In this document: positions 9,124 through 57,000 of the stretch, in pieces
How positions within the stretch are numbered: the first letter of the stretch is position 1
How the letters are laid out: every line of letters begins with the position of its first letter
Assembly: GCA_002796325.1 (NCBI GenBank)
Contig: PCXA01000001.1
Coordinates: 436,752-498,244, forward strand
Length of the DNA: 61,493 nt
From: Deltaproteobacteria bacterium CG11_big_fil_rev_8_21_14_0_20_47_16
GTDB taxonomy: Bacteria > UBA10199 > GCA-002796325 > 1-14-0-20-47-16
Reading direction: 5' to 3'
The notes under the pieces: generated by a model
What the model was told of the DNA's origin: nothing
The model's input: the letters and a program-made list of their open reading frames with translations, nothing else
Databases searched by the model: none
Position numbers and translations under genes: made by a program

Positions 9124-9212
9124 AAGTTTGTCTCCTAAAGATGAATAATATTTGGGCCTGCCTAATGGGAAACCTTGCAGGGAGCAACAATTTATTGATA
9201 GAGGGCCACCCC

Positions 9213-9569: not shown

Positions 9570-9582
9570 GGAGAATTCTTAT

Positions 9583-13429: not shown

Positions 13430-13440
13430 ATCACCTCGAG

Positions 13441-14742: not shown

Positions 14743-14748
14743 CTCTAA

Positions 14749-37488: not shown

Positions 37489-39446
37489 TGGACCTTCAGC
37501 AAATACGACGTGATATTGAAGGAGAATTGGAAGACGCACGATTTTTGGCGTTCATGTCATTGTACACATCATCAGAACCAGGTGTTCAAGAGGAAGTTGA
37601 TCGTATCGTTAATCAAAATGATCCCATTTTGAAGCTCATGTTTCTGCGCTTTTTAAGTCATGTGCCTGAAAGAAAAGCGGTGGGATACATTTGCCGGCTT
37701 ATGGAAAATGATAACGTCGTCGTCTCAGAAGCCGCCAGGCATGCATTTGAACAAAACCGATATGAAGCGCGGCTAGACATATTAATGCCACTCATTTTTT
37801 CAAAAATCTTTTATGCGCAACGTTTTGCCATAGAGTTTGTAGGGCGTGAAGGACGAATGGATGCGGTTGAACCGCTTGTCACAATGGCAGAAAATGCAAA
37901 TGAAGCGCTGTTGCTTGTTATTCTAACAACATTGCGATTTCTGCCCAGTGTTAGCTCGATTCCAATAACCTTACACTATATTAATGATCAGAGAGAGGAA
38001 GTGCGCTTTCGGGCAACCCTGCTTTGTGGCGAATTGATGGATGTTGAGATGAAGCAATTGCGCTCTTCGCTTTTATCTCTTTTACAGGATCCGTCTTCAC
38101 GTGTGCGGCGTGCGGCGCTATGGGGATTGCGTCGACATCCTGAAAAGAGCGATGTTGAGATACTGATTGTGATTGCGACAAAAGACTCTGACCCCATGGT
38201 TCGCCAAGAAGCAATTTTGGGTTTAGCAGAATTTCCAAACGATAGGGTGATTCAGATGCTGTTAAATATTTTGGTAACAGAAAAAGATCGCTGGGTATCT
38301 TTGAAGTGTGAATCTGTTTTGTTGGGAATGCCATCACGATATTTAATTAAAGGTCTTAATGATGTTTTAGCGCACGCAAAAGGGGATGTTCGCAATAAGG
38401 CAATTTTATTGGCTGCAGACTACCAGCGTGGCTCTCCTGAATATTTGAAGTTCCTTCTAAAAGGGCTTGTCAATGTGGCATCCGACAAAGAGAGGATTCC
38501 TTATTTGGAAGCGTTGGGTATTTTTGGCAGCCCTGATGCGGTCCCAATTCTATTGATGTATGTTTATGGCAGTCCGATTGTGGCTTATGTGGCGATGACA
38601 TCGCTACTCAAAGTCCACCCCAGTCCTGATACCTATTTAACTTATCTTGAGAAGCCAAATACATCTTCGCTTATTAAACAAATTGTGTTGCGCTATCTTG
38701 CGCGGAAGCCACTGGTTGATCGTACTTATCGAGATCGTCTGGTGAAATGTCTGATGGGCTTTTTGAGGGGTGATAATATTAATATGCGCTATCTGGCCGC
38801 GCAGGTTCTCATTAATGTAACGGGCGAAGAGGCGCAGGAGGCGTTGCTGGATACCATTGAACATGAAACAGATCCGGCATCACTTCATTTGCTTAGAACC
38901 AGCCTTACCGAATTTTTTACTAAGGATCCTCAAGGGTTTGTGGACTTGCTATCACGGCGGCGTGATTCTGAATTTGTCTTTGGCGAAATGGGGCTACTGC
39001 TTCAAGATGTTATCTGGAGTTCAAATGATATTCTTGCACAGTTGCCGTCGTTGCTTTCTCCAGATTTTGTAAAGGGGAATGAAGTTTATCTTCAGAACTG
39101 TGTAGTTTGGTTGGCGGACCAAATTCTACAGGGACGTGTTTCTCTTGAAAATGTCCTTAAAACGATAAGGGGTATACCTGGTGTGGAGTCAGTAGTTGTG
39201 CGTCTTTCCAAAATCCTGGTAGCGCACCCCGATGTGCGCCTGACAATTTCTGCTGATACATGTCAACGCTGGCTGAAAACTGGGGATGATGCCTCATGTG
39301 CAGCTATTATTGATTTGATGGGTATTGCTCATGATGTGTCGAGCATTCCTGTTTTGGTCTCAGTTGTATGCAATGATGCGCTGCAGCCATTTCGACAGAA
39401 TGCGGTGGAGGCCTTAGGTCGCTTAACGGGGGCAGTGAATGATTGA
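37488..39446 (+). CDS. HEAT-repeat scaffold protein inserted between pelE and pelF, 652 aa
   Basis: A soluble all-helical protein with at least 10-12 HEAT units: DPSSRVRRAALWGLRRHP and DPMVRQEAILGLAEFPNDRV are clear examples, with a last unit near FRQNAVEALGRLTG. No signal peptide or membrane segment is visible, so it is probably cytoplasmic. The start at 37488 shares its A with the pelE stop codon, after GGTGGGGGG; its stop overlaps pelF by 8 bp, so it is an integral operon member. The canonical pelABCDEFG operon has no such gene. A scaffold linking PelD/PelE to the PelF transferase, or docking the receiver proteins, is inference only. Confidence 0.85.
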   Translation: MDLQQIRRDIEGELEDARFLAFMSLYTSSEPGVQEEVDRIVNQNDPILKLMFLRFLSHVPERKAVGYICRLMENDNVVVSEAARHAFEQNRYEARLDILMPLIFSKIFYAQRFAIEFVGREGRMDAVEPLVTMAENANEALLLVILTTLRFLPSVSSIPITLHYINDQREEVRFRATLLCGELMDVEMKQLRSSLLSLLQDPSSRVRRAALWGLRRHPEKSDVEILIVIATKDSDPMVRQEAILGLAEFPNDRVIQMLLNILVTEKDRWVSLKCESVLLGMPSRYLIKGLNDVLAHAKGDVRNKAILLAADYQRGSPEYLKFLLKGLVNVASDKERIPYLEALGIFGSPDAVPILLMYVYGSPIVAYVAMTSLLKVHPSPDTYLTYLEKPNTSSLIKQIVLRYLARKPLVDRTYRDRLVKCLMGFLRGDNINMRYLAAQVLINVTGEEAQEALLDTIEHETDPASLHLLRTSLTEFFTKDPQGFVDLLSRRRDSEFVFGEMGLLLQDVIWSSNDILAQLPSLLSPDFVKGNEVYLQNCVVWLADQILQGRVSLENVLKTIRGIPGVESVVVRLSKILVAHPDVRLTISADTCQRWLKTGDDASCAAIIDLMGIAHDVSSIPVLVSVVCNDALQPFRQNAVEALGRLTGAVND

Positions 39447-40899
39447 TGTGTGTCTACTATTGGAAGGATCTTATCCCTATGTGGCAGGTGGTGTATCCAC
39501 GTGGGTACATCAGCTTATTGGTGCGATGAAAGATATTCGATTTGGGATTGTGTATATCACACCCCATTCAGATCCAACACGTGAGTTCAAATACACACTT
39601 CCCAATAATGTGATTTATCTTAAGGAATTGTGCCTACACGATTATGCCCTAGATGTTGTTGCGCCACGTCGCCCTAAAAAGTCGGACTATGAAACGTTGA
39701 TTGGATTTTATGAAAATGTGCTGCAAGGGCGTTATGATGGTTTTGAAGATGTTGTTCCTCTCTTTCAAGGACATAATGCCTGTTTTGACTTTAAGTCCTT
39801 CTTTGAATCAAAATCTATATGGGCAAGTCTCATTAAAAATTATCAACAGTATGCATCAGACACCGCCTTTTTAGATTTCTTTTGGACATGGCGTGGCACT
39901 CAGTTGCCGCTGTTGCAGGTTGTGATGACCGAGGTGCCGAGAGCGCCCATCGTTCATGCTATTTCAACGGGATATGCTGGTCTTTTGGGGGCTGTTGCCA
40001 AGATTGCATATGGTAATCAGTTTTTCTTAACTGAACATGGCATTTATACCCATGAGCGTATGCTGGAAATTGCACAAGCAACTTGGATTTATGAGCGTGA
40101 ACGTATGGGCTATCGTGCAGAACAACATATGTCAGTGTTTAAACAATGGTGGCTAGGTATTTTTAAGGTGATGGGTAGTTTGGCATATCGACATGTGGAT
40201 CGAATTTTTACGTTGTACGAAGGCAATCGACTCCGCGAAATTCTGGAAGGTGCTAATCCTGAAAAGATTACCATCATTCCAAATGGGATCGACGTGGCAT
40301 CCTATGAATCAATCGAAAGAGAGCGCAAGCCTGTTCCTCAAATCGGTTTTGTGGGTCGTATTGTGCGCATTAAAGATGCCAAAACCTTTATTCAGGCAGC
40401 CCGTTTGGTTCTAGATCAAATTCCAGATGCTGAATTTTATCTAATCGGACCTACTGATGAAGAAGAGGATTATGTAGAGGAGTGCGAGCTCATGATCGAG
40501 GCGCAGCATATGGAATCTAAAATTAAGTTGGTGGGAAGGTCAGATGTAAAAGAATATTACAAGTTTCTGGATCTGGTGGTTTTGACAAGTATTTCAGAGG
40601 CACAGCCCTATGTCATTTTGGAGGCGGGGGCGTCTGGTATTCCTGTGGTGGCGTCCGATGTGGGAGCGTGTCGTGAGATGCTGGAAGGACGTGATCCCGA
40701 GGATATTGCCATTGGCCCTGGAGGGATTGTTACAGAGGTGTCCAATGCAGAATCAACGGCAGAGGCAATTGTTAAGTTGTTAAGTGACCGCGTGCTACAA
40801 AAGCGTTGTTCTGAGGCGGCACGCATTCGCGTGCACCGTTATTATAATCAAGACGATTTGTTGAGTCGTTATCTTAACTGTTACGAGCAGGGGATGTAA
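39439..40899 (+). CDS. pelF: PelF, GT4 family UDP-sugar glycosyltransferase, 486 aa
   Basis: The cytosolic polymerising transferase of Pel. The N-terminus IDVCLLLEGSYPYVAGGVSTWVHQLI is diagnostic of PelF. Other family blocks are GHNACFDFKSFFES, FLTEHGIYTHERMLEI, IPNGIDVASYE, GFVGRIVRIKDAKTFI and the EX7E-type donor site SISEAQPYVILEAGASG. The length is close to that of Pseudomonas PelF (about 507). It overlaps the HEAT gene by 8 bp and is directly followed by pelG. Confidence 0.96.
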   Translation: MIDVCLLLEGSYPYVAGGVSTWVHQLIGAMKDIRFGIVYITPHSDPTREFKYTLPNNVIYLKELCLHDYALDVVAPRRPKKSDYETLIGFYENVLQGRYDGFEDVVPLFQGHNACFDFKSFFESKSIWASLIKNYQQYASDTAFLDFFWTWRGTQLPLLQVVMTEVPRAPIVHAISTGYAGLLGAVAKIAYGNQFFLTEHGIYTHERMLEIAQATWIYERERMGYRAEQHMSVFKQWWLGIFKVMGSLAYRHVDRIFTLYEGNRLREILEGANPEKITIIPNGIDVASYESIERERKPVPQIGFVGRIVRIKDAKTFIQAARLVLDQIPDAEFYLIGPTDEEEDYVEECELMIEAQHMESKIKLVGRSDVKEYYKFLDLVVLTSISEAQPYVILEAGASGIPVVASDVGACREMLEGRDPEDIAIGPGGIVTEVSNAESTAEAIVKLLSDRVLQKRCSEAARIRVHRYYNQDDLLSRYLNCYEQGM

Positions 40900-42297
40900 A
40901 TGGCGGGTATTGGCTTTCGACTGCAAAAGTTACTCAGTGGTGATTCATATACCGATTTGGTGAAGGCCTACCTATATTCGGCGATGATTGCGGCGGGTCC
41001 CATGTTGGTGGTGATGGCCACGTTGGGGATTGTGAAGCGCATTGCCCAAGACTCATTGGGCCTGGATGGTGAAGCAGAGTTTATGGGTTTGGTTGTTTAT
41101 GTGTATTCATTTTCAATGGTTATTGTTTCTCCTTTCTATTTTACAGTGACGCGCTTTTTGGCAGATCGTTATTATCTTAAAGATTTTGCAAGTTTCTCCC
41201 CGACATACTTTTCAGTGATGGGTATTGTGATTGTTCTGCAAGTTATGTTGGGAGGGTGGTGGGTGTCGCGCCTGCCAATACCTCTGGAAGTGGCTGTGTG
41301 GGAAGTGATGCTGTATGTTAGTGTGAGTGGAATCTGGATGGCGTCCATTTTTCTATCAGCTGCGCATAACTATATCTGGATGGCTGTATCATTTGTGGGC
41401 GGTGGAATATTGGGGGTCATTTGCGGCATTGTGGGCGGTTATTATTACGGACTAGCGGGGTTTTTGGGCGGATTTGCAATTGGCCAAATTGCAACCTGGG
41501 CGATGCTGAGTTTACAAATTGTTCGCGAATTTGGGTATCACATTGCCTATCAGTTTGGATTTTTGAAATATTTTATTAAGTACCCACTGCTGGTGTCTGT
41601 TGGGTTGCTCTATTATATTGGTATCTGGGTTGATAAGTGGGTGTTTTGGATGTCCCCAAATGCGACGCTCATTTTACAACATATTCGGGTGATGCCAGAT
41701 TATGATACCTCTTTGTTTGTGGCCTATCTCACAATTGTGCCATCGCTTGCCTTTTTTCTTATTCAAATGGAAACCTCATTTGTACAAGTCTACCAAAGTT
41801 ATTTTGTCGCAATTCGGCAGCACGCCACGTTTGGTGTGATTAGCGCGTGTGAACAGCGTATCGCGGATACAATTTCCAACCAATTCCAGCGCTTTGCAGT
41901 ATTTCAAGGGCTAATTAGTGGCATGGCGATCTTGTTTGCGCCTCAGATTGCTGACCTATTTAAGTTAAGTCCTGCGCAAGTGGGTATCTTCCGCGTGGGT
42001 ATTCTGGGTGCATTCATGCAGATGGGAATGATTATGATTATTAACCTGCTATTTTATTTCGATGCTCAGTTAGATGCGGTTTTGATTACGCTTTTGTTTA
42101 TGATCTGTAATGCTGTTTTTGCGCAAGTGACGCTGTATTTGGGGCTTCCGGCATATGGGTTCGGTTATACGTGCGCCTCGTTTTTGTCGCTGTTGATTGG
42201 ATTCTTTGTGCTAGATCGCCGCATTCGATTCATGAGCTATTGGACCTTTATGCGTCAGCCTGTTGTGATTCCGAAGTTTAAGCTGGAATCGGAATAG
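40900..42297 (+). CDS. pelG: PelG, polytopic polysaccharide transport protein, 465 aa
   Basis: An inner-membrane MOP/Wzx-like protein with about 12 helices that, in the Pseudomonas model, moves Pel across the membrane with PelF, PelD and PelE. The N-terminus MAGIGFRLQKLLSGDSYTDLVKAYLYSAMIAAGP and the block ALFFLIQMETSFVQVYQSYF-like (present as LAFFLIQMETSFVQVYQSYF) are typical of PelG. Its start follows the pelF stop with no gap. It is the last gene of the run. Downstream, 20 bp later, lies the REP-like element and then the opposite-strand RAYT gene. Confidence 0.94.
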   Translation: MAGIGFRLQKLLSGDSYTDLVKAYLYSAMIAAGPMLVVMATLGIVKRIAQDSLGLDGEAEFMGLVVYVYSFSMVIVSPFYFTVTRFLADRYYLKDFASFSPTYFSVMGIVIVLQVMLGGWWVSRLPIPLEVAVWEVMLYVSVSGIWMASIFLSAAHNYIWMAVSFVGGGILGVICGIVGGYYYGLAGFLGGFAIGQIATWAMLSLQIVREFGYHIAYQFGFLKYFIKYPLLVSVGLLYYIGIWVDKWVFWMSPNATLILQHIRVMPDYDTSLFVAYLTIVPSLAFFLIQMETSFVQVYQSYFVAIRQHATFGVISACEQRIADTISNQFQRFAVFQGLISGMAILFAPQIADLFKLSPAQVGIFRVGILGAFMQMGMIMIINLLFYFDAQLDAVLITLLFMICNAVFAQVTLYLGLPAYGFGYTCASFLSLLIGFFVLDRRIRFMSYWTFMRQPVVIPKFKLESE

Positions 42298-42368: not shown

Positions 42369-42998
42369 TTAGATTGTTTTTGGTTTTTTGGGAAGGCGTT
42401 TTGGTTGTAGCATATGGCGTATTGTTGCTTGCTCCCTTGCTTCATCGCTGGGTAATAAGTTGATGACAAAATCTCTGTAGAAACCTCGTCGGACTTCTTC
42501 GTTGTGTGCGAGTCCTAAGTATGATGGGTGTGGATCGATCGGAATTTTTGAATCGCCATGTGAATAAAAATTATATGCTGACCACGCCCATTTTTTTGGA
42601 TGTTCAACAATTCCGGCACGGACTGGATTGCGATCTAAATATCTCATGCAAGAAAGTGCGTATCTGTCTGTGTCAATTACCGAACATTTATAGTCATTGA
42701 TCCAAAGATGCCCATGGCGCTGATGTCGTTTATTGTAATCAAAAGCATACTTCTGATTGATTCCGTGCATGACGTGATTAAGCAGCGCAGGCCCGGGGGT
42801 GGTAATAATCAAATGAACATGACTATGCATAATAACAAGGTGATTTAGAAAAAATCCAAGCTGTTGGCGGCACTGGTCTACTATAAAAAGATATCGGTCA
42901 AAATCGTCCTTGGTTTGAAATCGAAAGTCCTTGTTGTTGCACTGCACGCGCACATGATAGCAAAGTCCCTCACCCAGTTTTCTTGGATAGCGTCCCAT
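42369..42998 (-). CDS. REP-associated tyrosine transposase (RAYT, Y1_Tnp/IS200-like), 209 aa
   Basis: A single-strand-DNA HUH nuclease. The HUH motif is HSHVHLI (in LVIMHSHVHLIITTP). The putative nucleophile tyrosine lies in the helix NQKYAFDYNKRH. RHGHLW, YALSCMRYLDRNPVRAGIVEHPKKWAWSAY is the RAYT-specific C-terminal block. The N-terminal MGRYPRKLGEGLCYHVRVQCNN is also typical. These proteins bind and cleave REP hairpins and are usually single copy and domesticated. Here the gene is flanked by inverted copies of a REP-like element. It appears intact and is isolated between the convergent pel and btu operons. Confidence 0.93.
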   Translation of the reverse strand: MGRYPRKLGEGLCYHVRVQCNNKDFRFQTKDDFDRYLFIVDQCRQQLGFFLNHLVIMHSHVHLIITTPGPALLNHVMHGINQKYAFDYNKRHQRHGHLWINDYKCSVIDTDRYALSCMRYLDRNPVRAGIVEHPKKWAWSAYNFYSHGDSKIPIDPHPSYLGLAHNEEVRRGFYRDFVINLLPSDEAREQATIRHMLQPKRLPKKPKTI

Positions 42999-43183: not shown

Positions 43184-43846
43184 TTAATGAATCGTGAAAA
43201 CCAATGGGAATTGTATGTGGCCAGAATAGAGCGGCAGTGGGGCGCTACGTTCAACGGCTTGCATAGCAGCGCTATCGAGTGTCGGCACTCCTGAAGATTG
43301 TATAATTGTAATGTCTGTTGGGATGCCGTTGTCCTGAATGCGAAAACGAAGTCTGACACGTCCCTCTTGTCGCATGAGACGTGCCTGTTCGGGATAATGT
43401 TTGGCGCGTTCAATGCGGCGTCGAATTTCTGCCAATACTGGGTTTCCTGCACCTGGCGTGCCGCCACTACCCGTACCGGCTACTCCAGTTCCTTCACCAT
43501 TGCCTGTGGTAGTGGTGCCAACCGCTTCAGAGCTATCTGTTGTTGTCTTGTGTTCGGTGCTTTGGGTTTTTATTGATTCTGGTGACGACGGTTGCGATTT
43601 TTGAACTGTGGGTTTCGACTGAGCTGTTGCGCCACCGTCATCTCCGTCACCAATAATGACATCGTCTACAAATAGTGCAGAGCCAGGATGGTCGGCAGGC
43701 ACGTTCCACCATGCGGCTACAACAAGCGCAATTAAAATGCCCAAGTGAATGATAATTGACAGCGTAATGCCCTGTCGGAATTCAAGTGGGCGTTCGTTTT
43801 TTTTCTTTCTGCGCCGTCGGCGTCTTTTGGGAGTCACTCGTTTCAT
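43184..43846 (-). CDS. tonB: TonB-like energy transducer, 220 aa
   Basis: Transmits proton-motive energy to TonB-dependent outer-membrane receptors. Order: a very basic cytosolic tail (RRRRRRKKK, about 7-16); one transmembrane helix (about 25-47, ITLSIIIHLGILIALVVAAWW); a low-complexity Ser/Thr/Gly periplasmic spacer (about 60-130); and a C-terminal TonB domain with ARLMRQEGRVRLRFRIQDNG and SGVPTLDSAAMQAVE. It is the last gene of the btu run, 2 nt after btuD, so it is probably dedicated to the BtuB receptor. No exbB or exbD is nearby, so it must borrow a motor encoded elsewhere. Confidence 0.87.
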   Translation of the reverse strand: MKRVTPKRRRRRRKKKNERPLEFRQGITLSIIIHLGILIALVVAAWWNVPADHPGSALFVDDVIIGDGDDGGATAQSKPTVQKSQPSSPESIKTQSTEHKTTTDSSEAVGTTTTGNGEGTGVAGTGSGGTPGAGNPVLAEIRRRIERAKHYPEQARLMRQEGRVRLRFRIQDNGIPTDITIIQSSGVPTLDSAAMQAVERSAPLPLYSGHIQFPLVFTIH

Positions 43847-43848
43847 AG

Positions 43849-44616
43849 TTACATTGGAACAAAATAGGGCCGTCCATTCACTTCATTAATGCCCACGTAG
43901 ACATCTGCATCAAATGTGGCACAGACATTTCTGTAGCTTAGTGTTTTTTCTGTAGGGCCGCTAGCATATACCTGCCCACCCTTTAATAATACCACGTGGG
44001 TGCAAATTTGGGCAGCGAGGTTTAAGTCATGCAAGACAGCAATGACCGTGCCATTTGTTTTGCTTACCCAGTCTCGCAAAATGCGCACGACATCAGACTG
44101 ATGACGGATATCCATAAAGGTGGTGGGTTCATCCAGCAATAAGAGTTGCGGCGTTTGCGCCAGTGCGCGGGCAAGGATGATGCGCTGACGTTCACCGCCA
44201 GAGAGTTCGCCAACATAACGATCCCGAAGATCCCAACAGTCACATAGCTGCATGGCTTCAAACACCATATGCTGATCATCCTGCGACGCAAATCCAAAGC
44301 CAGTGCTAAAGGGAAGACGTCCCAAAAGTACCAAGTCAATTGCGCGCATGGGAAAAATCTGGGGTGTCTCTTGTGGTACATAGGCCACGTGTTGCGCCAA
44401 TTTTCGGCGACTCCACGTGGACTGTATTTTTCCAAAAATTGTAATGTCGCCCCGTGTTGGCAATAAGCTGCTGCTCATCAATTTAAGGAGTGTGGTCTTT
44501 CCTGCACCGTTGGGTCCAAGGATACCGGTGATTTGACCCTTTGGAAAATCAAGCGATGTAATTTCCAAAATGCGACGTTCATCGTATGCAAATTGAATAT
44601 TGTTTAGAGAGATCAT
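43849..44616 (-). CDS. btuD: Vitamin B12 ABC transporter ATPase, 255 aa
   Basis: The ATP-hydrolysing subunit of a BtuCD/FecCD-type importer. Walker A is GPNGAGKTT, the Q-loop region is VAYVPQETPQIFPM, the signature is LSGGERQ and Walker B is LLLLDEPTTFMD. The start at 44616 (MISLNNIQF) overlaps the btuC stop (ATGA); the upstream open frame is a shadow of btuC. Cobalamin rather than iron-siderophore as substrate is inferred from the cobalamin riboswitch and btuB in the same operon. Confidence 0.9.
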   Translation of the reverse strand: MISLNNIQFAYDERRILEITSLDFPKGQITGILGPNGAGKTTLLKLMSSSLLPTRGDITIFGKIQSTWSRRKLAQHVAYVPQETPQIFPMRAIDLVLLGRLPFSTGFGFASQDDQHMVFEAMQLCDCWDLRDRYVGELSGGERQRIILARALAQTPQLLLLDEPTTFMDIRHQSDVVRILRDWVSKTNGTVIAVLHDLNLAAQICTHVVLLKGGQVYASGPTEKTLSYRNVCATFDADVYVGINEVNGRPYFVPM

Positions 44617-45584
44617 GCCGTCATCTCCCGTCGCAAGAGCCAGACAAATACGGGTCCACCAATGAGTGCCGTAATGACACCGACAGGTAGTTCGGTTTGA
44701 ATTTGGGGTACCGCAGAGAGTGCGCGTGCAAGGGTGTCGGCAACAATCAAGAAGCTGCCCCCAACCAATGCGGAAGCAGGAATGGAGAAGCGGTGATCGC
44801 TTCCCCATAATAGACGCACAATGTGGGGAATGAAGAGGCCAACGAATCCAATTAGCCCAGCAACGGCAACGACTGCGCCGATCATAATGGATGCGGCGAT
44901 GAATGTTTGAATGGAAAGTCGTTGCGGATTGATGCCGACAGAATGCGCAGTTTCATCACCCAGGCACATGGCGTTCAGCGCTGCGCCATTACGTGTTAGC
45001 CAAATGAGTGATGGGATAACTGCAAGCGAAATCCATCCAACCGTTTTGAGTGAAACCGTTTCAAGACTGCCGATCAGTAGAAAAAGAATGGCATGGGCGT
45101 CTTCCATGCGTACCAAGGTGTGAACCAGCATGATGACGGCAAATGCGAATGCATTGAAAATCACACCCGCTAACAAGAGTGCATGTGGGGATTGGCGCTG
45201 GCCTACTGCCCACACTAAAAAAAGCATGGTGGCAATGCTGCTGCCAAAGGCACAGAAGATGGTGATGATGAATGGGAGCTTCAATACAACGCCCATGACG
45301 CTTCCGAGTGCGGCGCCGCCGGAAACACCTAATACATAAGGGTCTGCGAGTGGGTTTCGTAGAAGCGCTTGGAATGCGCAGCCCGATGAGGCAAGCGCCA
45401 TGCCAACGATCATTCCCAAGAGAACGCGTGGCAGGCGCACTTGCCATAAAATGATTTGGCTCGTGGGGTCATTCCATTGCAGCATTTGCGGGCCGACTGC
45501 GAGTCCAAAGATCATGCAGATGATCGCTACGATTGCTAGAAGCCCAAGGCCGATGAGCCATTTTTTAAATGACAGTGTGCTCAT
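44613..45584 (-). CDS. btuC: Vitamin B12 ABC transporter permease, 323 aa
   Basis: A FecCD-family inner-membrane permease with about ten helices. Characteristic stretches are VRLPRVLLGMIVGMALASSGCAFQALLRNPLADPYVLGVSGGAALG, AGLIGFVGLFIPHIVRLLWGSDHR and the final LPVGVITALIGGPVFVWLLRR. These form the substrate path and the ATPase-coupling loop. It overlaps the btuF stop and the btuD start by 4 bp each. Confidence 0.93.
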   Translation of the reverse strand: MSTLSFKKWLIGLGLLAIVAIICMIFGLAVGPQMLQWNDPTSQIILWQVRLPRVLLGMIVGMALASSGCAFQALLRNPLADPYVLGVSGGAALGSVMGVVLKLPFIITIFCAFGSSIATMLFLVWAVGQRQSPHALLLAGVIFNAFAFAVIMLVHTLVRMEDAHAILFLLIGSLETVSLKTVGWISLAVIPSLIWLTRNGAALNAMCLGDETAHSVGINPQRLSIQTFIAASIMIGAVVAVAGLIGFVGLFIPHIVRLLWGSDHRFSIPASALVGGSFLIVADTLARALSAVPQIQTELPVGVITALIGGPVFVWLLRREMTA

Positions 45585-46411
45585 AGTTGTTTGGCCAGTT
45601 GCATGGCAGCTGCGGGCAGACGTGGTCCTGGGCGAAAGTCATCCATGTTGAGTGAGATGATGCGATTGTGCTTCACAGCCGATAGCATGGGAAACTGGTT
45701 CCAAAATTGCTGGGAGCGTTCAGTGCCCATGGTGATATCAATAATGATGGTGGGATTTAATTTTAATAATGTTTCAGTATTCAAATGAGGGTAGGGCAGC
45801 GGTGTATTTCCCATGACATTTTGAACGCCAAGAGCTGATAGCACTTCACCCAAAAATGTTTGGGCTCCCACAACAATCAGCGGGCGATAGCCCACTACGA
45901 TGAGTGCATTTTGATCGTGGGCTTTGGGAATTTTATTCATTTGTGTGTGCATGTCTTTAACAAGTCGCGCCGCTTCTTTGGGGCGTCCCACTTGATCGCC
46001 TATTTTTTGGATGGATTGATACATGTCCTCCAAGGTTTTGAATGAGAAGAACGCCGTCTGCAACCCCAATTTTTGGAGCTGCAGTGTGGCGTTTTTGGCA
46101 CTGTTCTCTTCCGAGCCCATCACTAGATCAGGATGCACGGCAAGCAGCTGTTCTGGGAATGGCCGCAAATAATCGGCGACCTTGGGAAGCGCACGTGCTG
46201 CAATCGGTTGGTTGCACCATGTGGTGACACCCACCACTTGATTGCCCACACCCAGTGCAAAAAGAATCTCGGTGATGTTGGGTTTGAGCGAGACAATGCG
46301 TTTTACAACTACTTGATTTTCAATAGGAAAAGCTGTTGTGGAAAAACATCCGGTGCACAGGAGAGTGGTAATCAGTCCCAGTGCCGCCATAATAGATGCA
46401 ATTCGTCTCAC
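45581..46411 (-). CDS. btuF: Cobalamin-binding substrate-binding lipoprotein, 276 aa
   Basis: A class III binding protein that hands B12 to BtuCD. Signal peptide with lipobox LLCTGC|F (Cys22), so it is membrane anchored, unlike soluble E. coli BtuF. RIVSLKPNITEILFALGVGNQVVGVTTWCNQP is the typical N-lobe motif, followed by the long helix linking two lobes (DMYQSIQKIGDQVGR...). The start is GTG (46411), overlapping the upstream stop. Family membership is clear; cobalamin specificity follows from the operon. Confidence 0.88.
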   Translation of the reverse strand: MRRIASIMAALGLITTLLCTGCFSTTAFPIENQVVVKRIVSLKPNITEILFALGVGNQVVGVTTWCNQPIAARALPKVADYLRPFPEQLLAVHPDLVMGSEENSAKNATLQLQKLGLQTAFFSFKTLEDMYQSIQKIGDQVGRPKEAARLVKDMHTQMNKIPKAHDQNALIVVGYRPLIVVGAQTFLGEVLSALGVQNVMGNTPLPYPHLNTETLLKLNPTIIIDITMGTERSQQFWNQFPMLSAVKHNRIISLNMDDFRPGPRLPAAAMQLAKQL

Positions 46412-47721
46412 TGGATCTCCACAATATCAGGACCGTTTGCGATAAAAAGGCGGCTGCCCCAGCACACACCTTTTGCCAATCCAGAATAGTCTGTCAAATT
46501 CTTGTCTATCGTAACGGGTTGGCCAAAAGTTTTGGGAGTTGATCCTGAAATATCCCATGCGTGTACAATGCCAGTATTAAAATTGCCGGCAATTAGATGG
46601 TCATCTCCAATAAATGTGGCGAAGGAAATCAAATGTGCGCCACTCGTGACCAGTGCTTCAGGAGCTGTTGCGACTTGGGGTGTGGCTTTCAAATCGTTTG
46701 TACTAAGAATGACAACGCGTCCCGAATTGTCTGCAGATGGAATGGCAATGTGTTGATTGTCGTCCGATACAGTAATTTCGCCTGCAACCCCAAGGCCGGC
46801 GAAGGGTAGTTCAATTTTTTGAATAAATGCCAGCGTCTCGGCATCAAAGACAACCAAACTACTGTGAGTCCCACTTGTGTCACCTGCCCCATCCAGCGAC
46901 TCAGTGTTGATGATGCCTACGTAGGTTTTTCCATTGAGGGTCCATTTCCCAATGCTGGTGGGGTTGGCGCCTTGAGTTGCCAATACTTTTGGTGGGCTGT
47001 CTGGCGATGTGGCAGAGTAGACCAATACTGACCCCGGATCGTACTCCGGTTTTCCAGTAGAAAATGAAATATTACTTGTTACCACAAATACATTATCCCC
47101 ATAAATAAGAGTGCCCTTCGGAAAACTGGGTTTAAATTCCTTCTCTGAAAGAGAAACCGGTGCGAATGTTTTCCAAATTGGTTTTGCATTCACATTGGTC
47201 ATCCATTGGATGCCTGATTCATAGGTGGCAGCGTCTGACCCGGTAATAATGAGAATGCCATTATTCCCTAATGCGATTTGGTCTGCCGTTGATGAAAGGG
47301 GTGTATTCATTGATATCCCAGACAACCCCCATTGGAAAAATGTGTTGTTTTTTGCAAAATCAGAACAGGTACCTGCGCCTGTTTCGTCCAAGTCATTGAT
47401 GATAGCACTGTTTGTGCAGGGTGTGGCAAGCGCCTTTACCTTTCCCAATTCAAACGCTGCAACGCAGCCAGTTGGCACTCTTGTTTGAATATCAGTTTTT
47501 GTATCTTTTGATTCCACATAGCTATCAGTAGTTTCATTCCGTGATGTTAAATCACTTGAAGTTATGCTGTCAGGGCTAAACGTGTCGACCGCAAATTCTA
47601 CATCGACACCTGATGCATCTGCACCACCGTCAGTAGCGCCAGTTGTGTCATCCGTATCACTTAATCGACTTGCACACCCTGATACGACTAAGCCAACTGC
47701 AATTGCAATTCCGATTGCCAT
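46408..47721 (-). CDS. Beta-propeller-like lipoprotein in the B12 operon, 437 aa
   Basis: The start at 47721 has AGGGAG upstream and gives a lipoprotein signal MAIGIAIAVGLVVSGC|A with lipobox VSGC; the longer open frame lacks support. After an Asp/Thr-rich linker, repeating strands (GILIITGSDAATYESGIQW, LVVFDAETLAFIQKIELPF, RVVILSTNDLKATPQV, NTGIVHAWDIS) look like a YncE/YVTN-type propeller. Its position between btuB and btuF under the same riboswitch suggests that it helps bind or deliver cobalamin at the cell surface, as BtuG propeller lipoproteins do in Bacteroides. That role is inference; no ligand residue can be assigned. Confidence 0.72.
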   Translation of the reverse strand: MAIGIAIAVGLVVSGCASRLSDTDDTTGATDGGADASGVDVEFAVDTFSPDSITSSDLTSRNETTDSYVESKDTKTDIQTRVPTGCVAAFELGKVKALATPCTNSAIINDLDETGAGTCSDFAKNNTFFQWGLSGISMNTPLSSTADQIALGNNGILIITGSDAATYESGIQWMTNVNAKPIWKTFAPVSLSEKEFKPSFPKGTLIYGDNVFVVTSNISFSTGKPEYDPGSVLVYSATSPDSPPKVLATQGANPTSIGKWTLNGKTYVGIINTESLDGAGDTSGTHSSLVVFDAETLAFIQKIELPFAGLGVAGEITVSDDNQHIAIPSADNSGRVVILSTNDLKATPQVATAPEALVTSGAHLISFATFIGDDHLIAGNFNTGIVHAWDISGSTPKTFGQPVTIDKNLTDYSGLAKGVCWGSRLFIANGPDIVEIQ

Positions 47722-47746
47722 GTCTATTCTCCCTGTTAATTGGTTA

Positions 47747-50041
47747 TTATGGTTTTGAGCCATGCACCACTGCAATGGCATCTAAATCAAATCCGTTGGT
47801 TCCGTTGATTCCTTTAAAGGGGGTCAGCCCCTGATCGATGATGCGAATAAATTTGACCTTTTGCACACCAATTGCTGCTAAATCAAATGGGTCACCGCCA
47901 GCTGTCTGTGGATCTAGTGGATCTACTCCATTGGTGGGGTTGGACAGCACCGGATGTGTGCCGGCACAGCCTGGATAGTTGGGCGAGTTGTTTAGATCGC
48001 ACGGGAAATCAGTAAAATTCACACCATCCATGCTCACACCAACAATAGCAGGCTCACTAAATACCGCATTCGGATTGCCGCCGGCATAAAATGCATTTTC
48101 AAAAACGATGAAGTCGGTGCCAGGACCATCGGCAATGGGGCAGTGGTTGAACGCCACAATAATCTGCCCCTTATCACCCAGTGAAAATGTGTCGGTGCTT
48201 CCCATGATGACGCTCCCACCCTGCGGAGGTCCTTGAATCACCTGTGGTAAATTGTTTTCGTTGGCGCCACCACCCGATCCCACCACATAACTGACAATTT
48301 GATTCACAAATGGTATAGCGCCAATGTCTTTGCAATTCACAACAACAAGTTTCCCATTATCCTCTGGTGTTTCTGTTGTGGGGGCAGACGATATGTTGGG
48401 TACGGCACCAGTGTGGATAGCAACAGTCGTTTGCGCAGATACTCCCCCCACGCTGACAGTGATCTTGGTGATACCTGTGGAAATGCCTGTCACTAGGCCA
48501 TCTGCGGACACTGTGGCAATTGCAGGGTTGTCGCTATGCCAATGAAGTGTGTAGATTTGCTGGGTGTCTGGGTGCGTAAAATGAGTGGTGATGTTGATTA
48601 ATTGTTTGCCGGTACCAAGCGTTACAAGTCCTGAAACATAAGATTGATTGCCAACACCCAATGGAACGAATGCAGGTCGAATTTCAACACTGCGAAGTGG
48701 TGGTATCTTTTGGGGTGCACCTGAATAAGTATTAATTGTAACCATGCTGCCAGGATTTCCGGTGAGCGCAAAGACATCAGGCCCGGTGAAGTCAGTGCCC
48801 GCAATTCCAGGGCGGATGGCAATGTCTGAGATGCCAGTGTTAACACCACTGGGGTTATCTGGTGTAACACCTTTTGAAAATCCAACAGGCCATGACGTGG
48901 GAAAAGGAGTGACTGGATTAGATGTAAGATCTAAAATAAAAACACTACTTTGGTCAAAACTTCCTACAAACGCACGCTCACCATCGGGCGTGATTGCAAC
49001 AGCTGTGAGGTAGTCGTTCGAAATGCTGCTATTAATTGTAATAGGGTTTGATAAGTCGCGTATCCATTGATTTTGCAGTAGATCCAGTTGGTAGACGTGT
49101 GGAAATGCAGTGCTGCCAAAATAGGCAAACTGTCCTGTTGGATCAATGCGAGGTGCAAAAAATGACAACGATGATTTGCCCATTGGTAAGCTCGAAGTAA
49201 GTGCTCCTGTTGTAGCGTTTACAATGTCAACAGACGATGGTGTTTCAGGAGAGGCTTCGCCATCAATAATGTTGAGTACCCCAGAATTGGTAATGAGAAC
49301 GGTGCCATTACCCACATTGGTAATGCCCGTGGGATTGTAGCCCGATGTAATGATGGTGGGTTGAGGTGCAGCAACAAGTCCCGTTTCGGTAATGGTGTAG
49401 CGAAACACCGTTCCCGGTGCGGCAACCGCAGGGGGTGCGTAGCGTAAGTAGTTGGCAGTACTCACCCATAGCGTGTCATTTGTAATGGCGATCCCACCCG
49501 GAAAGGCAACATGGATTTCATTTGTTGTGGTATCAACATTGCCATCGTTATCAAAATCCAGAGGACCTGACAGTGGCAGTGACGAGTCCAGTTTTACACT
49601 TTTTGGAAGCGCAACGGCTGCGCGCACGTCACCGGTTGTCGGGTTGAAGTCAATTACGTGAGATGATGTGAGCATGAACGCACGTGTGGGACTTTGAATA
49701 ATTAAATTGTTGGGCAATCCTGTTCCTGGAGGGGAGGTAACGCCTTTAAATTTTGTAGATATAGAATACGGGCGACTATCCAGATCAATCGCGACCACGC
49801 CTGATGGATTGAGTGTGCTGACGACAAATGCGGTGGAGCGCATGCTGTCGATATCTGGAATGATGATACGTGCCGGATAGGGACTTGCAAATAGAAAGGC
49901 ATCCTTGGTGATAGTGGCACTTCCCAGCTCGGTGGATTCAGAAGTGAATATCTGGGGATCTTTATCAACATTGGTGTACAGCATGCCATCGCCGCATGCC
50001 GATATGGTGAAGGCAACAATCAATAGTAGTAAGCGGTTCAT
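47747..50041 (-). CDS. YncE/YVTN propeller lipoprotein with Ig-like (BIG2) and C-terminal surface domain, 764 aa
   Basis: A lipoprotein signal (MNRLLLLIVAFTISAC|G) is followed by propeller-type repeats (about 40-430) such as NPSGVVAIDLDSRPYSIS, NPTGITNVGNGTVLIT and TPDGERAFVGSFDQSSVFILDL. About 460-540 is a BIG2-type Ig-like domain (ISTGITKITVSVGGVSAQTTV). About 560-764 is a domain with FIVFENAF, EPAIVGVSMDGVNFTDFPCD and FDLAAIGVQKVKFIRI, met in proteins annotated 'cell surface protein'. It overlaps btuB by 4 bp and so shares the riboswitch. By analogy with Bacteroides BtuG it may capture cobalamin next to BtuB. No direct evidence for ligand binding is visible. Confidence 0.78.
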   Translation of the reverse strand: MNRLLLLIVAFTISACGDGMLYTNVDKDPQIFTSESTELGSATITKDAFLFASPYPARIIIPDIDSMRSTAFVVSTLNPSGVVAIDLDSRPYSISTKFKGVTSPPGTGLPNNLIIQSPTRAFMLTSSHVIDFNPTTGDVRAAVALPKSVKLDSSLPLSGPLDFDNDGNVDTTTNEIHVAFPGGIAITNDTLWVSTANYLRYAPPAVAAPGTVFRYTITETGLVAAPQPTIITSGYNPTGITNVGNGTVLITNSGVLNIIDGEASPETPSSVDIVNATTGALTSSLPMGKSSLSFFAPRIDPTGQFAYFGSTAFPHVYQLDLLQNQWIRDLSNPITINSSISNDYLTAVAITPDGERAFVGSFDQSSVFILDLTSNPVTPFPTSWPVGFSKGVTPDNPSGVNTGISDIAIRPGIAGTDFTGPDVFALTGNPGSMVTINTYSGAPQKIPPLRSVEIRPAFVPLGVGNQSYVSGLVTLGTGKQLINITTHFTHPDTQQIYTLHWHSDNPAIATVSADGLVTGISTGITKITVSVGGVSAQTTVAIHTGAVPNISSAPTTETPEDNGKLVVVNCKDIGAIPFVNQIVSYVVGSGGGANENNLPQVIQGPPQGGSVIMGSTDTFSLGDKGQIIVAFNHCPIADGPGTDFIVFENAFYAGGNPNAVFSEPAIVGVSMDGVNFTDFPCDLNNSPNYPGCAGTHPVLSNPTNGVDPLDPQTAGGDPFDLAAIGVQKVKFIRIIDQGLTPFKGINGTNGFDLDAIAVVHGSKP

Positions 50042-52038
50042 GTTTTTGGCTCCTTCGCCCAGTCGTATTTGATGGTTGCAAAAAAGCTACGACGCGGCAG
50101 TGGAAACGCACGCACGTCATAAAGCTGAATGTTGGCCAAGTTCTTGCCTTCAACGATAATGCTCCAATTCTTCCAAACGGTGCCCACAATGCCCGCATCC
50201 ACTTGTGTTTTGGATGAAATGAAAACGGTATTCTGTACGTTGACGGGAATGCGGGAGATCATTTGAACATCCGAGAAGATTGCCAACGCCCAATTTTTGC
50301 CCCACTTTTGATCATAGGTGAGGCGCACATTTCCCAATTGTATGGGACGTCCCGCCAATTGATTGCCTGTGCTGGCAAAATGCGCACTCGTCCATGTGTA
50401 GTTGGCTTCTGCAGTCATGACTTTTGCAAAGTGGAGTTTTCCGGAAGCCTCGATGCCATGGATATGCACCTTGAATGTGTTGATGGGTGCAATGGTTAGG
50501 GCGCTGATGGGTACAAAGATGATCGAGTTGTAGACTTGGTTTAAGTAATAGGCCAATTCAAGGTGGCCGCGATTGGAATGCAGCTTGAACCCAACATCAA
50601 AGTTGAGTGACTTTTCTTTGTCCAAGTTGGGATTGCCACGCAAAAAACCTTCATTGGGAAAGTAAAGTTCGCTGAAGTTGGGAATGCGATACCCATACTC
50701 AATGTTGGATTTGAACAAAAGCCATCGTGTGGCATTGGCGACAACACCCAGCTTGAGTCCTGTGTTGTGTTGGTAGTGTGTAGCGGTTTCGTATCGAACA
50801 ACAGGTAAAATGACAAAATAGTCGTGAGGGGTGTGCCACTCATCTTGTAACATAATCATGCCCACATTGCGGTGCTGGGTACCAATGGGTACTGTTGTTG
50901 AATTGCCGACAGAGTCAGTTTGGCGTTCCAGTCGGTAGTCGGCGCGGAATTTGGTTTCATGCTCACCGGCACCACTCCACGAGTAGCCCATCGTAAAATT
51001 TGGATTGGCTGCTAGGTAATTGACAGTGTGGTTGATGGGGCTGCCAACGGCAGGGCTTTCATCGCGGAAGTGACGAAACTCATACTGAAAGTTACCGGCA
51101 GGTTGGAAAAATAAATGGTCGGCAGCGCATCCACTACATGTACCTTGCACGGTTGCAACGTTACGCCAGTAGCGTTCTTGCGCATCGAGTGGATCACCGG
51201 GGTAGAGGAGTGTGGTTTGCTCTTCCGTGCCGGGCATCTGGCGTGTGGTCCAAAAGAAGTTGTCAGATCCCTGTAAAAACCAATGATCGCCCACCATCAT
51301 GTCGCCTTTGGCAAGAAGGGAATCGGATAATGATCTATTGTGGACACGATCAAACACTTGGCCGGTGACACCTGTGGGCGTGCCGGTCAGGGTGGTGGCA
51401 GCCGCCTTGAAGTGATAATCACCCTTTGTCATAAAATGACTAAATGACAAAAGGCCGCTCTTGGTTTTGGTTTCTTTGGCAACGCTTCCACCAGCTTTGA
51501 ATGTTTGAAAATAACCGCCACCGGCATAGACCGCTGCTTGTTCCCCGCGCTTGGCGTGTTTGGTAATGATGTTGATGACACCGCCAATGGCATCTTGACC
51601 GAATTGTGCGGTACCACCGCCACGAATGACTTCGATGCGATCAATAATATCAATGGGGATACTTGAAAGATCAACTGTTCCGGTCGCTCCTGTATTGAGT
51701 CGAATGCCGTCCATGTAAACAGCAACTTGTTCAGGTGTGGAACCGCGAATGGTCATGGTGGAGAACTGACCCAATCCACCTGTTTCCTGAACGTTCACAC
51801 CTACGGTTCGTGAAACAATTTCAGTTAAGTTGCGAAATTGCGTTTTAAGGGCAGATGGTTTGATAACGGTTGTAAATGAAGAGGGTGCGCCCGCAGATGT
51901 ATCATCGGCCTCAGCCTCAACACGAATTTCTCCCAAGCTAGCAGCATCATCGGACAAGGTGCTGTCTTGTGCGCGCACGGGATGTGGGCAGGCGAGACAA
52001 AAAACAAACAACAGCAATGGGAGTCGATAAGGGTGCAT
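50038..52038 (-). CDS. btuB: TonB-dependent outer-membrane receptor, BtuB-type, 666 aa
   Basis: A 22-stranded-barrel type receptor with plug. The signal peptide ends at VRA|Q. A TonB-box-like segment (LGEIRVEAE) is followed by the plug (FSTMTIRGSTPEQVAVYMDGIRLN, and IDIIDRIEVIRGGGTAQFGQDAIGGVINIITK) and then barrel strands to the terminal aromatic-containing region (RRSFFATIKYDW). The length is near that of BtuB (about 610). It is the first gene after a cobalamin riboswitch, which identifies cobalamin or a corrinoid as the likely ligand. A GTGGGGA ribosome site precedes the ATG at 52038. Confidence 0.9.
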   Translation of the reverse strand: MHPYRLPLLLFVFCLACPHPVRAQDSTLSDDAASLGEIRVEAEADDTSAGAPSSFTTVIKPSALKTQFRNLTEIVSRTVGVNVQETGGLGQFSTMTIRGSTPEQVAVYMDGIRLNTGATGTVDLSSIPIDIIDRIEVIRGGGTAQFGQDAIGGVINIITKHAKRGEQAAVYAGGGYFQTFKAGGSVAKETKTKSGLLSFSHFMTKGDYHFKAAATTLTGTPTGVTGQVFDRVHNRSLSDSLLAKGDMMVGDHWFLQGSDNFFWTTRQMPGTEEQTTLLYPGDPLDAQERYWRNVATVQGTCSGCAADHLFFQPAGNFQYEFRHFRDESPAVGSPINHTVNYLAANPNFTMGYSWSGAGEHETKFRADYRLERQTDSVGNSTTVPIGTQHRNVGMIMLQDEWHTPHDYFVILPVVRYETATHYQHNTGLKLGVVANATRWLLFKSNIEYGYRIPNFSELYFPNEGFLRGNPNLDKEKSLNFDVGFKLHSNRGHLELAYYLNQVYNSIIFVPISALTIAPINTFKVHIHGIEASGKLHFAKVMTAEANYTWTSAHFASTGNQLAGRPIQLGNVRLTYDQKWGKNWALAIFSDVQMISRIPVNVQNTVFISSKTQVDAGIVGTVWKNWSIIVEGKNLANIQLYDVRAFPLPRRSFFATIKYDWAKEPKT

Positions 52039-52061: not shown

Positions 52062-52074
52062 GGTTAAGTGAAAG

Positions 52075-52262
52075 TTACTCTGAAGAGAGGTCTCCTGACT
52101 TGCGACAAACTGGTTCCCCTTGCCTTCCCATTTGGTTGGAAAAACCAAACAGTGACTAACGGGGACCCCCCAAAATCGCTTACAGTGGCGGGACCGTGTA
52201 GGAATTGCACCTACTTCCCTGATTCTTCAGTGTGTGGGCGCTTAGTGCCTCAGTGGGGTAAC
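52075..52262 (-). promoter_or_regulatory. Cobalamin riboswitch controlling the btu operon
   Basis: Reading on the minus strand, the transcript carries the conserved aptamer blocks in order: GGGAAGTAGGTGCAATTCCT, then CGGTCCCGCCACTGTAAGCG, a variable arm, and finally the B12 box AAGTCAGGAGACCT (52088-52101). This is the standard AdoCbl-type aptamer. It lies about 40 nt upstream of btuB and faces it, so cobalamin should repress the run btuB to tonB. Exact boundaries are approximate. Confidence 0.95.
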
Positions 52263-52283
52263 GTCAAGCAAATCCCCCCCTTG

Positions 52284-54004: not shown

Positions 54005-57000
54005 CTAATTTCCATACGGGTCCTTAGGAGGGGAAGAGTATGGATCTTTGGGAGGTGTGCATTTTGGTATACTGTCAAATGTGGGACATGTAACGGTTGT
54101 GTTAACATAGCCAGGATAATATATGACATCTTTGGATATGCATGTGGAGGAGATTGTTGGAGAATATGGATCTTTGGGATTGCCAGTGCAGACTAACATT
54201 CCTGAAGTGTTTGTGCAGCCAGCAGTATTTTTCCCTTCTGTATTTTTGATGTTACATGCAGGTTCTCCAAAGGCGCAGACCGGGTCTAATGCGGAGGTTG
54301 CTAACAATGGATATTGTGTACCCGTTCCGATACCCAGTTGCCCATCTTTGTTGATGCCCCAACATTTAACGGTACCATCTTTAAGAATCGCGCAATTGAA
54401 GCCGCTACCGCTTGTAAGGCTTGTAGCGCCTGCAAGGCCTTTGACGGTAATTGGTATGAGCGACTTGTTGGTTGTTCCATCTCCCAGTTGGCCCGATACG
54501 TTATTGCCCCAACATTTAATAGTGCTGTCTGAGAGAAGGGCGCAGCTAAATGTGTCACTTCTGTTGATTTGTTGGACATTATTTAGGTTCTTAACGGTAG
54601 CTGGGTCGGATGAATAAGCTTCGGTGCCATTTCCTGCTTGCCCATAGTAATTGTATCCCCAGCATTTAGCGGTTCCGTCATTAAGTGTGACGCAGGTTGT
54701 GCTATTGTAGGAATTAATTGATATTGCATTGGATACTCCGACAACGCTAGCTGGTAAGGGCGCATCATTTTGTGTGCCGTTGCCAAGTTCTTTTGCTATG
54801 TTGTATCCCCAACATTTAGCGGTTCCGTCTTTAAGAAGAGCACAGTTGAACATGTAGCCAGAGCTGATTGCTATTGCATTATCAATGCCAGTTACATTGG
54901 TGGGGACGCTTGAATTATTTTTTGTGCCATTACCCAGTTGGCCGTGATTGTTGCGTCCCAGGCATTTAACAGTACCATCGTTGAGTAGGGCACAGGTGGT
55001 ATCATTGCCCAAGATTACTTTTGATATATTCGAAATATTGGGAACGACGATGGGTGTCTGCATATAGTTATTTGATCCATAACCCAGTTGTCCAGAATAG
55101 TTGTCTCCCCAGCATGAGAGGCTGCCATCACTTGAAGTGGCACAGGCGTTGGTGGGTCCAACAAATATGTTTGTGGCATTTGTGATGTTGCTGACTTTGA
55201 CGGGAATGTTTGATGAGCTTGTAGATCCATTACCCAGTTGTCCATAGTTGTTCGTTCCCCAACACATAACGGTTCCATCTTTAAGTAATGCACAGAAGAA
55301 TTTTTTGCCGGCTGCTATTTGAGAGGCGTTGGTTATATTTTTGACGTTGGTTGGTGAATAAGCATCAAAGTCAGTGCCAATGCCTAGCTGCCCAGAGTAG
55401 TTTGCTCCCCAACATTTGATTGACCCGCTATTGAGAAGTGCACAGACTGAGCTGTTGTCAATTGCAATTTCCTTTATACCACTTATGTTGCATTCGCATG
55501 CATCACCCTTGCCATCTGAATTGCTGTCCTTTTGGTCAGTGTTGGCCTGGAACGGACAATTATCTTTATCGTCCTTAATACTGTCGTTGTCTGAGTCGAT
55601 GCATTGGGAATCTGATGTGTTTGCTGTGCCTTCAACACAGGTTCCTGCAATACATTTTTCACTGCCATTGCAGATATTGCTATCAAGACATTCACTGTCG
55701 GTCTGGCATAGTTTGGGTGGCAGTCCTTTGTCTGCACCAAGTGGTTTTTCACAGGCGCCATCTAGCGGATTGCATAAATTAGGTGCAGCGCATTTTTGAA
55801 TATGACTCACGGTACCATTAGTGCAGCTGTCGATTGTGCAAATATCACCATCATCGGTTTGTTTGCCAATGCAAGGGTCTTCACATGCACCAGTGTTAGG
55901 ATTGCAGACGTTGGGTGAGGTGCATTTTGGTGTGTGGGTGACAGTGCCGTTTGTACACGCATCAATTGTACAGATGTTGCTGTCATCGACTTGCTTGCCT
56001 GAACAAAGGTCAATGGGCTTGCATTGCCCTGTTTCGTCACACTTTTCTCCGACAGGGCAAAGGTCTTGGGGTGTTTTGACTATGCCTTTCAAAGGATCAC
56101 AACTGACATTTTCGCAGGCGGTTGATGATGTTGTTATAGCCAAATGTGAACAGGTATTGGCAGAGCAGGCGTCAGTGGTGCATGCGTTGTTGTCATTGCA
56201 ATCGCTCGCAGATAGGCATTCAAGACATGTACCTCCGGAGCAAACCTTCTTATCAGTTGGGCAATCGATTGCTTGAGTGTAACTATTGCTGTCGTTGATA
56301 CATTGGACTTGGATCAATTTTCCACTATTGTCGCAGAAGTCGTTACCAGAGATTGTTTTTCCGTTTTCAATCCACGAAATTTCACCCAAAATGGTTGGAT
56401 CGTTTTGAGGATCGATGGCATCCTTGCAATTAGTACATAGATTGTTAGCGCCACAACCAAGTGGGCAGATTTCAACTTTCTTGTAGGCATCTCCTATGCT
56501 TTGGCAAAGCCCTGAAGCTATAGCGTTGTCGTCACAGCATGCCCAAGTTTCATGTGTGTTTTGTGCTTGAATGCAGGAGTTGATACTTTCTTTGGTGTCG
56601 ATAATTTCTCCTTTGAAATTGGTGGTAATCTGAATGACTCCATCCTGAGTAGGTTTGTATCCGCAAGTTTTTGTTAATTTTTCAACACAGAGCCCCTGAT
56701 AGCAAACTTTACCGTCAGGACAAAACTCAGGGTCTTTGGATTTGAATCCAGATGGATTACTTATGTCGCATATGGTTTTAACAATTTTTTCAGGTATTGC
56801 GAGGTCACAACTATCATAACTAGTAAATGCGGAGCCCTTTGAGGTTGTTCCCTTAACACCATGTACGCCGACATCATTTTGAATGTCAGTGCATTGGGGT
56901 TCTTGTGGGAGATAGCATACACCGTCACCGCAGAGTTGTGTGCCGGGACACGTGAATGTTTTACTGCTATATCCTTTAGAGTTTCCAGCATCGCATTTGA

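Follow-up and report, generated by a model that had tools for sequence, protein, structure and literature searches.

The surface lipoprotein BtuG, which is coupled to the cobalamin transporter BtuB, has been reported as exclusive to the Bacteroidetes (PMC6143338), and competition between gut bacteria was offered as the explanation for it. In Bacteroides thetaiotaomicron, BtuG1 carries a fused H domain (8blw_B), and BtuH2 has been solved with B12 bound (7biz). In this protein, Asn399 touches the B12 phosphate and Phe401 the lower ligand (PMC8941943). DUF4465/BtuJ B12-binding proteins are B12-operon lipoproteins that have been reported from several phyla, including Myxococcota (PMC13398666). Our literature search found no description of BtuG or BtuH outside Bacteroidota. 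The evidence assembled here supports a BtuGH-type capture module outside that phylum, as a variant of the known BtuG/BtuH system.

Layout and genome setting of the operon

The window (the whole stretch of DNA that was analysed, 61,493 nucleotides) carries on its minus strand what reads as one operon, running from 52269 to 43184: a cobalamin riboswitch, btuB, LP1, LP2, btuF, btuC, btuD, and tonB (Table 1). A preliminary description had placed two lipoproteins between the btuB and btuF of a riboswitch-controlled B12 operon, with overlapping or close junctions, and this layout is confirmed by the RF00174 match and by the Pfam and NCBIfam assignments of the btu genes. Region 46408-50041 of the minus strand holds two reading frames, LP1 and LP2. 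The btuB stop overlaps the LP1 start (ATGA), 25 bases separate the LP1 stop from the likely LP2 start, and the end of LP2 shares bases with the GTG start of btuF (GTGA). This likely LP2 start is the ATG at 47721, behind AGGGAGA; it is preferred to the mechanical start at 47781, which would overlap LP1. The best NCBIfam match of btuB is TIGR01779 (TonB-B12, E 2.5e-42), although below that model's equivalog cut-off. BtuF has a lipobox of its own (LLCTGC), and therefore the substrate-binding protein is probably membrane-anchored; membrane anchoring is likewise predicted for BtuF2 of B. thetaiotaomicron (PMC12751083).

Table 1. Features of the B12 operon, with positions in the window.
Feature	Position	Strand	Evidence
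tonB-family energy transducer, last operon gene	43184..43846	-	TonB_C E 6e-17
btuD, ATPase	43849..44616	-	ABC_tran E 2e-32
btuC, permease	44613..45584	-	FecCD E 5e-80; NCBIfam best match BtuC
btuF, substrate-binding protein	45581..46411	-	Peripla_BP_2; NCBIfam best match BtuF
LP2, second propeller lipoprotein (predicted), 437 aa	46408..47721	-	profile similarity to LP1 and solved propellers
LP1, G-Ig-H lipoprotein (predicted), 764 aa, BtuG1 (BtuGH)-like architecture	47747..50041	-	ORF, Pfam, model, Foldseek, hhalign, HMM
LP1 H domain, BtuH-type, residues about 575-762	47756..48319	-	model, Foldseek, hhalign, HMM
Asn-Ala-Phe motif in H, residues 649-651, aligned with BtuH2 Asn399/Phe401	48089..48097	-	profile alignment; contacts PMC8941943
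LP1 Big_2 Ig-like domain, between G and H, residues 492-540	48422..48568	-	PF02368 E 2.7e-8
LP1 beta-propeller (G domain, predicted)	48722..49924	-	model; Foldseek; BtuG homology via sister-operon propellers
LP1 lipoprotein signal, lipobox ISA-C16	49994..50041	-	sequence; C16 invariant among fused homologues (alignment A4)
btuB, TonB-dependent outer-membrane cobalamin transporter	50038..52038	-	Pfam plug and barrel; NCBIfam; tree
Cobalamin riboswitch (RF00174), operon head	52068..52269	-	Rfam match 82.4 bits, E 8.6e-19

A search of the whole genome (1.95 Mb, 99.75% complete) found no second cobalamin riboswitch. B12-binding domains are present in a frame of 1142 residues and in another of 144, which from domain and length would be MetH-like and mutase-like, respectively. 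As these domains are present and no CobS was found in the genome, the bacterium probably depends on cobamide from outside. The genome also has no DUF4465 (BtuJ-type) protein. Elsewhere in the window, and judging from sequence only, two neighbouring genes resemble pelF and pelG of Pel polysaccharide synthesis (39439-42297), a gene like those of REP-associated tyrosine transposases lies just past the end of the operon (42369-42998), and 54005-58285 encodes a secreted protein of 1426 residues with cysteine-rich and RCC1-like repeats (CALLNDGTVKCWG).

The C-terminal domain of LP1

The additional surface domain announced in the preliminary description is present at the C-terminus of LP1, and it can now be specified as BtuH-type from fold, HMM, and hhalign comparisons. 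Because a full-length model built with ten sequences left this H domain poorly folded, it was folded alone with 103 sequences, giving a mean pLDDT of 95.9. When the model was compared with 350,542 PDB chains, just three matched at E<=1e-3, and these occupy ranks 1 to 3: 8blw_B (BtuG1), 7biz_B, and 7biz_A (both BtuH2), with TM-scores of 0.50-0.54 by query length. Discoidin and CBM32 domains follow after these.

For the last 190 residues of LP1, no Pfam family gives a match in any of 38 relatives. The sole PDB sequence retrieved by the H profile at E<=10 is BtuH2, at an E of 0.48 that is weak when taken alone. Profiles of Bacteroidota BtuH were built from B. finegoldii, Persicobacter, and contigs from faecal phage collections; a scan of viral contigs for BtuH2 returned nothing, and the Bacteroidota sequences were taken instead from plasmid and phage collections. 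Aligned with these by hhalign, the H profile scores 96.4% (E 1.4e-9), or 96.9% (E 1.6e-10) with more rows, while the control alignment of H with the BtuG profile yields 0.1%. Among the reading frames of the loci that were fetched, the BtuH HMM finds 108 matches, the best 40 of which are all H proteins, and it recognizes the LP1 domain at E 1.3e-5. By profile comparison and predicted fold, then, the C-terminal domain of LP1 is a homologue of BtuH. The convergent origin suggested in the preliminary description is thereby excluded for this domain. Among the source sequences, the B. finegoldii “plasmids” 18 and 34 carry Bacteroides btu operons, one of them next to carB and integrases, and are probably pieces of chromosome; five unverified faecal “phage” scaffolds (L088-L092) carry genes similar to those of the Bacteroides btu operon.

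The fragment of B. finegoldii BtuH2, which is identical to 7biz in this region, puts Asn399 and Phe401 at an N-A-F motif, and this motif aligns with FENAF of LP1. Among the 103 rows of H relatives, the aligned Asn is found in every one, and the Phe in 97. The sequence alignment with BtuH2 reaches the nucleotide-loop half only. The corrin-ring contacts of BtuH2 (Tyr510, Trp511, Trp577, and His476) lie in the region left unaligned by the profile, and alignment A7 has no conserved Trp, Tyr, or His column. The ring side of the H pocket may therefore differ from that of BtuH2.

The fact that these aromatic contacts are not visibly kept, together with a BtuB under the TonB-B12 equivalog cut-off, would suit a module whose ligand is something other than cobalamin, such as incomplete corrinoids, protein-bound cobamides, or another tetrapyrrole. 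We consider this very improbable, since cobalamin riboswitches control the genes in several lineages, the invariant phosphate-contacting Asn would be useful only with a nucleotide loop, and the genome lacks a CobS to finish an incomplete corrinoid. Capture of a complete cobamide through its nucleotide loop is the preferred reading.

The propellers of LP1 and LP2

Propellers had been proposed for both lipoproteins. That of LP1 is supported by its model, and that of LP2 by the resemblance of its profile to LP1 and solved propellers. With ten sequences, AlphaFold places the LP1 propeller at residues about 40-440 with a mean pLDDT near 88, the remainder being poorly folded. The comparison of predicted structure with BtuG that the preliminary description called for was made with LP1: BtuG2 from the BtuB complex ranks second and BtuG (3dsm) fourth, but 919 PDB chains match at E<=1e-3, and the TM-score to LP1 is higher for YncE (3vgz, 7seu) than for BtuG. 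The propeller fold alone is thus not specific for BtuG.

Single-sequence phmmer searches of the PDB with LP1 and LP2 return no BtuG or BtuH match, so profiles are needed, and a BtuG HMM has no direct match to either protein. In direct hhalign comparisons with the BtuG profile, LP1 reaches 55.8% and LP2 90.5%. The YncE control gives 4.5% with LP1 and 16% with LP2, but the YncE profile, made from a single sequence, is weaker, and YncE is matched at 67.5% even by BtuG; for these reasons the direct link between LP1 and BtuG is not taken as proof. The best PDB matches of the LP2 profile are 8ptd and 8ptf, followed by 8blw_B (E 3e-5 to 9e-4). From the matched residues, 8ptd and 8ptf appear to be BtuG1-type chains as well. 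The propellers of LP1 and LP2 align at 99.65%, and by this profile measure they are one family.

Sister operons often carry a propeller gene of their own, placed after btuB and before the gene for H or the reverse. Eleven of these propellers were combined in a profile (A10), which replaced a wider but too gappy alignment (A9). In the PDB, this profile finds nine BtuG sequences first (7e-5 to 1e-3), with YncE at 0.15. Its alignment to BtuG spans 302 columns (97.2%, E 3.9e-11), and that to the propeller of LP1 spans 331 (98.5%, E 2.9e-15). As the sister propellers match both, the LP1 propeller can be tied to BtuG through intermediates rather than directly, and judging from these profiles it is only distantly related to it. 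In another locus of this kind (L068 from genome G031, 8359-15300), one riboswitch operon has propeller genes both before and after btuB, and paired propellers therefore recur.

Because its C-terminal domain is BtuH-type, LP1 has the architecture of BtuG1 (BtuGH) plus an Ig insert, the latter being the extra Ig-like domain that had been anticipated and that is found as Big_2. The LP2 lipobox is VSG-C16, followed by an acidic Asp/Ser/Thr linker, and the lipobox Cys is nearly invariant in LP1 and LP2 homologues. The residues that begin at this Cys are CGDGMLYT in LP1 and CASRLSDT in LP2; inspected by eye, both lack the Bacteroidota lipoprotein export signal. This signal is reported to be exclusive to Bacteroidetes (PMC6143338), and surface display in this bacterium would therefore need another route. 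Its absence is also why LP1 is called BtuGH-like rather than filed as BtuG.

These contrasts between domains raise the question of whether the propellers touch the ligand at all. With strong homology for H and a distant link to BtuG for the propellers, and with BtuG2 corrin contacts that are not mappable onto LP1 or LP2, H alone might bind B12, both propellers then being structural scaffolds, or lids that keep LP1 in place on BtuB through protein-protein contacts. This is unlikely in our judgment: BtuG is the best solved match of LP2-type and sister propellers, and the LP1-type propellers are acidic, as BtuG is, and come after BtuB wherever the flank suffices to tell. A corrinoid role for the propellers therefore stays part of the preferred reading.

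Distribution, history, and closest known systems

The H domain occurs in 40 of the 46 genomes of the host's class, counting the host itself, and in 37 of the 339 genomes that belong to other lineages. Of the relatives' H genes, 37 were fetched and 36 scanned for riboswitches; 27 of these 36 have a same-strand cobalamin riboswitch upstream, counting one (L075) that overlaps a mechanical ORF start. Of the nine without it, seven have less than 2 kb of contig on the upstream side, so that the true exceptions are L062 and L077. A wider genome scan recovered H loci from Myxococcus, Corallococcus, Archangium, Labilithrix, CSSED10-310, and others, and all nine loci tested there have the riboswitch. 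In Myxococcus xanthus AM003 (L162, 174-8576), two cobalamin riboswitches and three lipoprotein genes share one btu locus, in the order riboswitch, btuB, MXAN_6577-like lipoprotein, btuF, btuC, second riboswitch, further lipoprotein, H lipoprotein, btuD. Judging from their sequence, the two lipoproteins without H are presumably propellers. One record titled Comamonas sp. KCTC 72670 (L110, BNCN01000012.1) has a BtuB that falls inside Myxococcus on a short branch, and is therefore probably mislabelled or contaminated.

Propeller and jelly-roll folds are widespread and structurally promiscuous, so that generic secreted propeller and discoidin-like proteins could have landed in a B12 operon by chance. 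This is scarcely credible, given that the gene order and the link to a riboswitch are seen repeatedly within the class, and in myxobacteria as far as H is concerned, that no second LP1 copy was found in the genome, and that BtuH precedes all discoidin and CBM32 domains among the fold matches.

In the BtuB tree, the BtuB of the LP1 operon falls within its own order, and Bacteroidota BtuBs form one distant, separate clade. The tree thus points to inheritance of BtuB within the lineage, and the transfer proposed earlier as the other possible origin finds no support as a recent event from Bacteroidota. The host had also been called Myxococcota-like, which is not established: it is a MAG lineage filed by NCBI as Deltaproteobacteria, and on that ground it is not Bacteroidota. 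The ten fused G-H proteins (LP1 and nine relatives) coincide exactly with one ten-row clade of the tree (support 97), whose neighbours have G and H as separate genes, and a single fusion is therefore the simplest reading. As the tree was built by a quick method and has some long branches, its deep order is not relied upon.

The H-domain homology, the LP2 profile matches to BtuG1, the sister propellers, and the linkage make BtuG-like capture outside Bacteroidota, as first suggested, the best reading. The locus probably serves to scavenge B12, as an operon under riboswitch control whose two lipoproteins form a surface capture module with homology to BtuG and BtuH of Bacteroidota. By analogy with these homologues, from which surface exposure, B12 binding by each domain, the BtuB lid, and the hand-over are all drawn, a mechanism can be proposed. 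The riboswitch would shut the operon when B12 is plentiful. LP1 would be held at the outer membrane by its lipid anchor, with its propeller sitting on BtuB as a lid and the Big_2 domain acting as a spacer between G and H. The H domain would reach out, catch a cobamide by its nucleotide loop, and hand it to the LP1 propeller and BtuB. LP2 may be an additional or alternative corrinoid binder, or a second lid. Import would be powered by TonB, and uptake completed by BtuFCD.

We lean slightly toward a broader view: that surface capture by a propeller lid and an H domain is an ancient cross-phylum module and not an invention of Bacteroidota, that a single fusion of neighbouring G and H genes in the host's class, here with an Ig spacer, produced a protein in which catching a cobamide and passing it on to the BtuB lid take place in a single polypeptide, with LP2 as second lid or binder, and that the unfused module works in M. 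xanthus. Since the parts of LP1 and LP2, found in the B12 operon of an unrelated small-genome bacterium, are distant relatives of Bacteroides proteins, this way of capturing B12 is probably far older, and present in far more lineages, than has been reported. Homologous modules in a small-genome lineage, in myxobacteria (for the H domain), and elsewhere would mean that B12 capture at the cell surface arose outside the gut. A function is now suggested for the H domain, which has no Pfam model, and M. xanthus offers a cultured, genetically tractable organism in which to test the module.

Among known systems, DUF4465/BtuJ proteins are likewise B12-operon lipoproteins, but their domain differs from those of LP1 and LP2. 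The Leptospira LIC_13355 family (NF033170), whose name states no function, has a model that matches the LP1 H domain at E 2.7e-13, below its curated cut-off; LIC13355 of L. interrogans is listed among genes raised in host-adapted cells (PMC3953431). BtuG2 (BT_1954, 3DSM/8BMX) is also an acidic propeller lipoprotein coupled to BtuB, but LP1 and LP2 are related to it mainly via intermediate profiles, and their propellers span about 400 residues versus 330. BtuH2 (BT_1956, 7BIZ) shares with LP1 the H fold, the NAF motif with its phosphate-contacting Asn, and an Ig-like domain before H. In B. thetaiotaomicron it is a separate protein without a propeller, whereas the LP1 H domain is about 80 residues shorter, has a conserved Cys pair of its own, and does not visibly keep the ring-contacting Tyr and Trp. 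The closest system is BtuG1/BtuGH (BT_1490, 8BLW), the best fold match of the H domain: in both, an N-terminal propeller and a C-terminal H domain form one lipoprotein, whose gene directly adjoins btuB in a cobalamin-riboswitch locus. Compared with BtuG1, LP1 has a Big_2 domain between G and H, a distant propeller, an H domain again shorter by about 80 residues, and no export signal of the Bacteroidota type.
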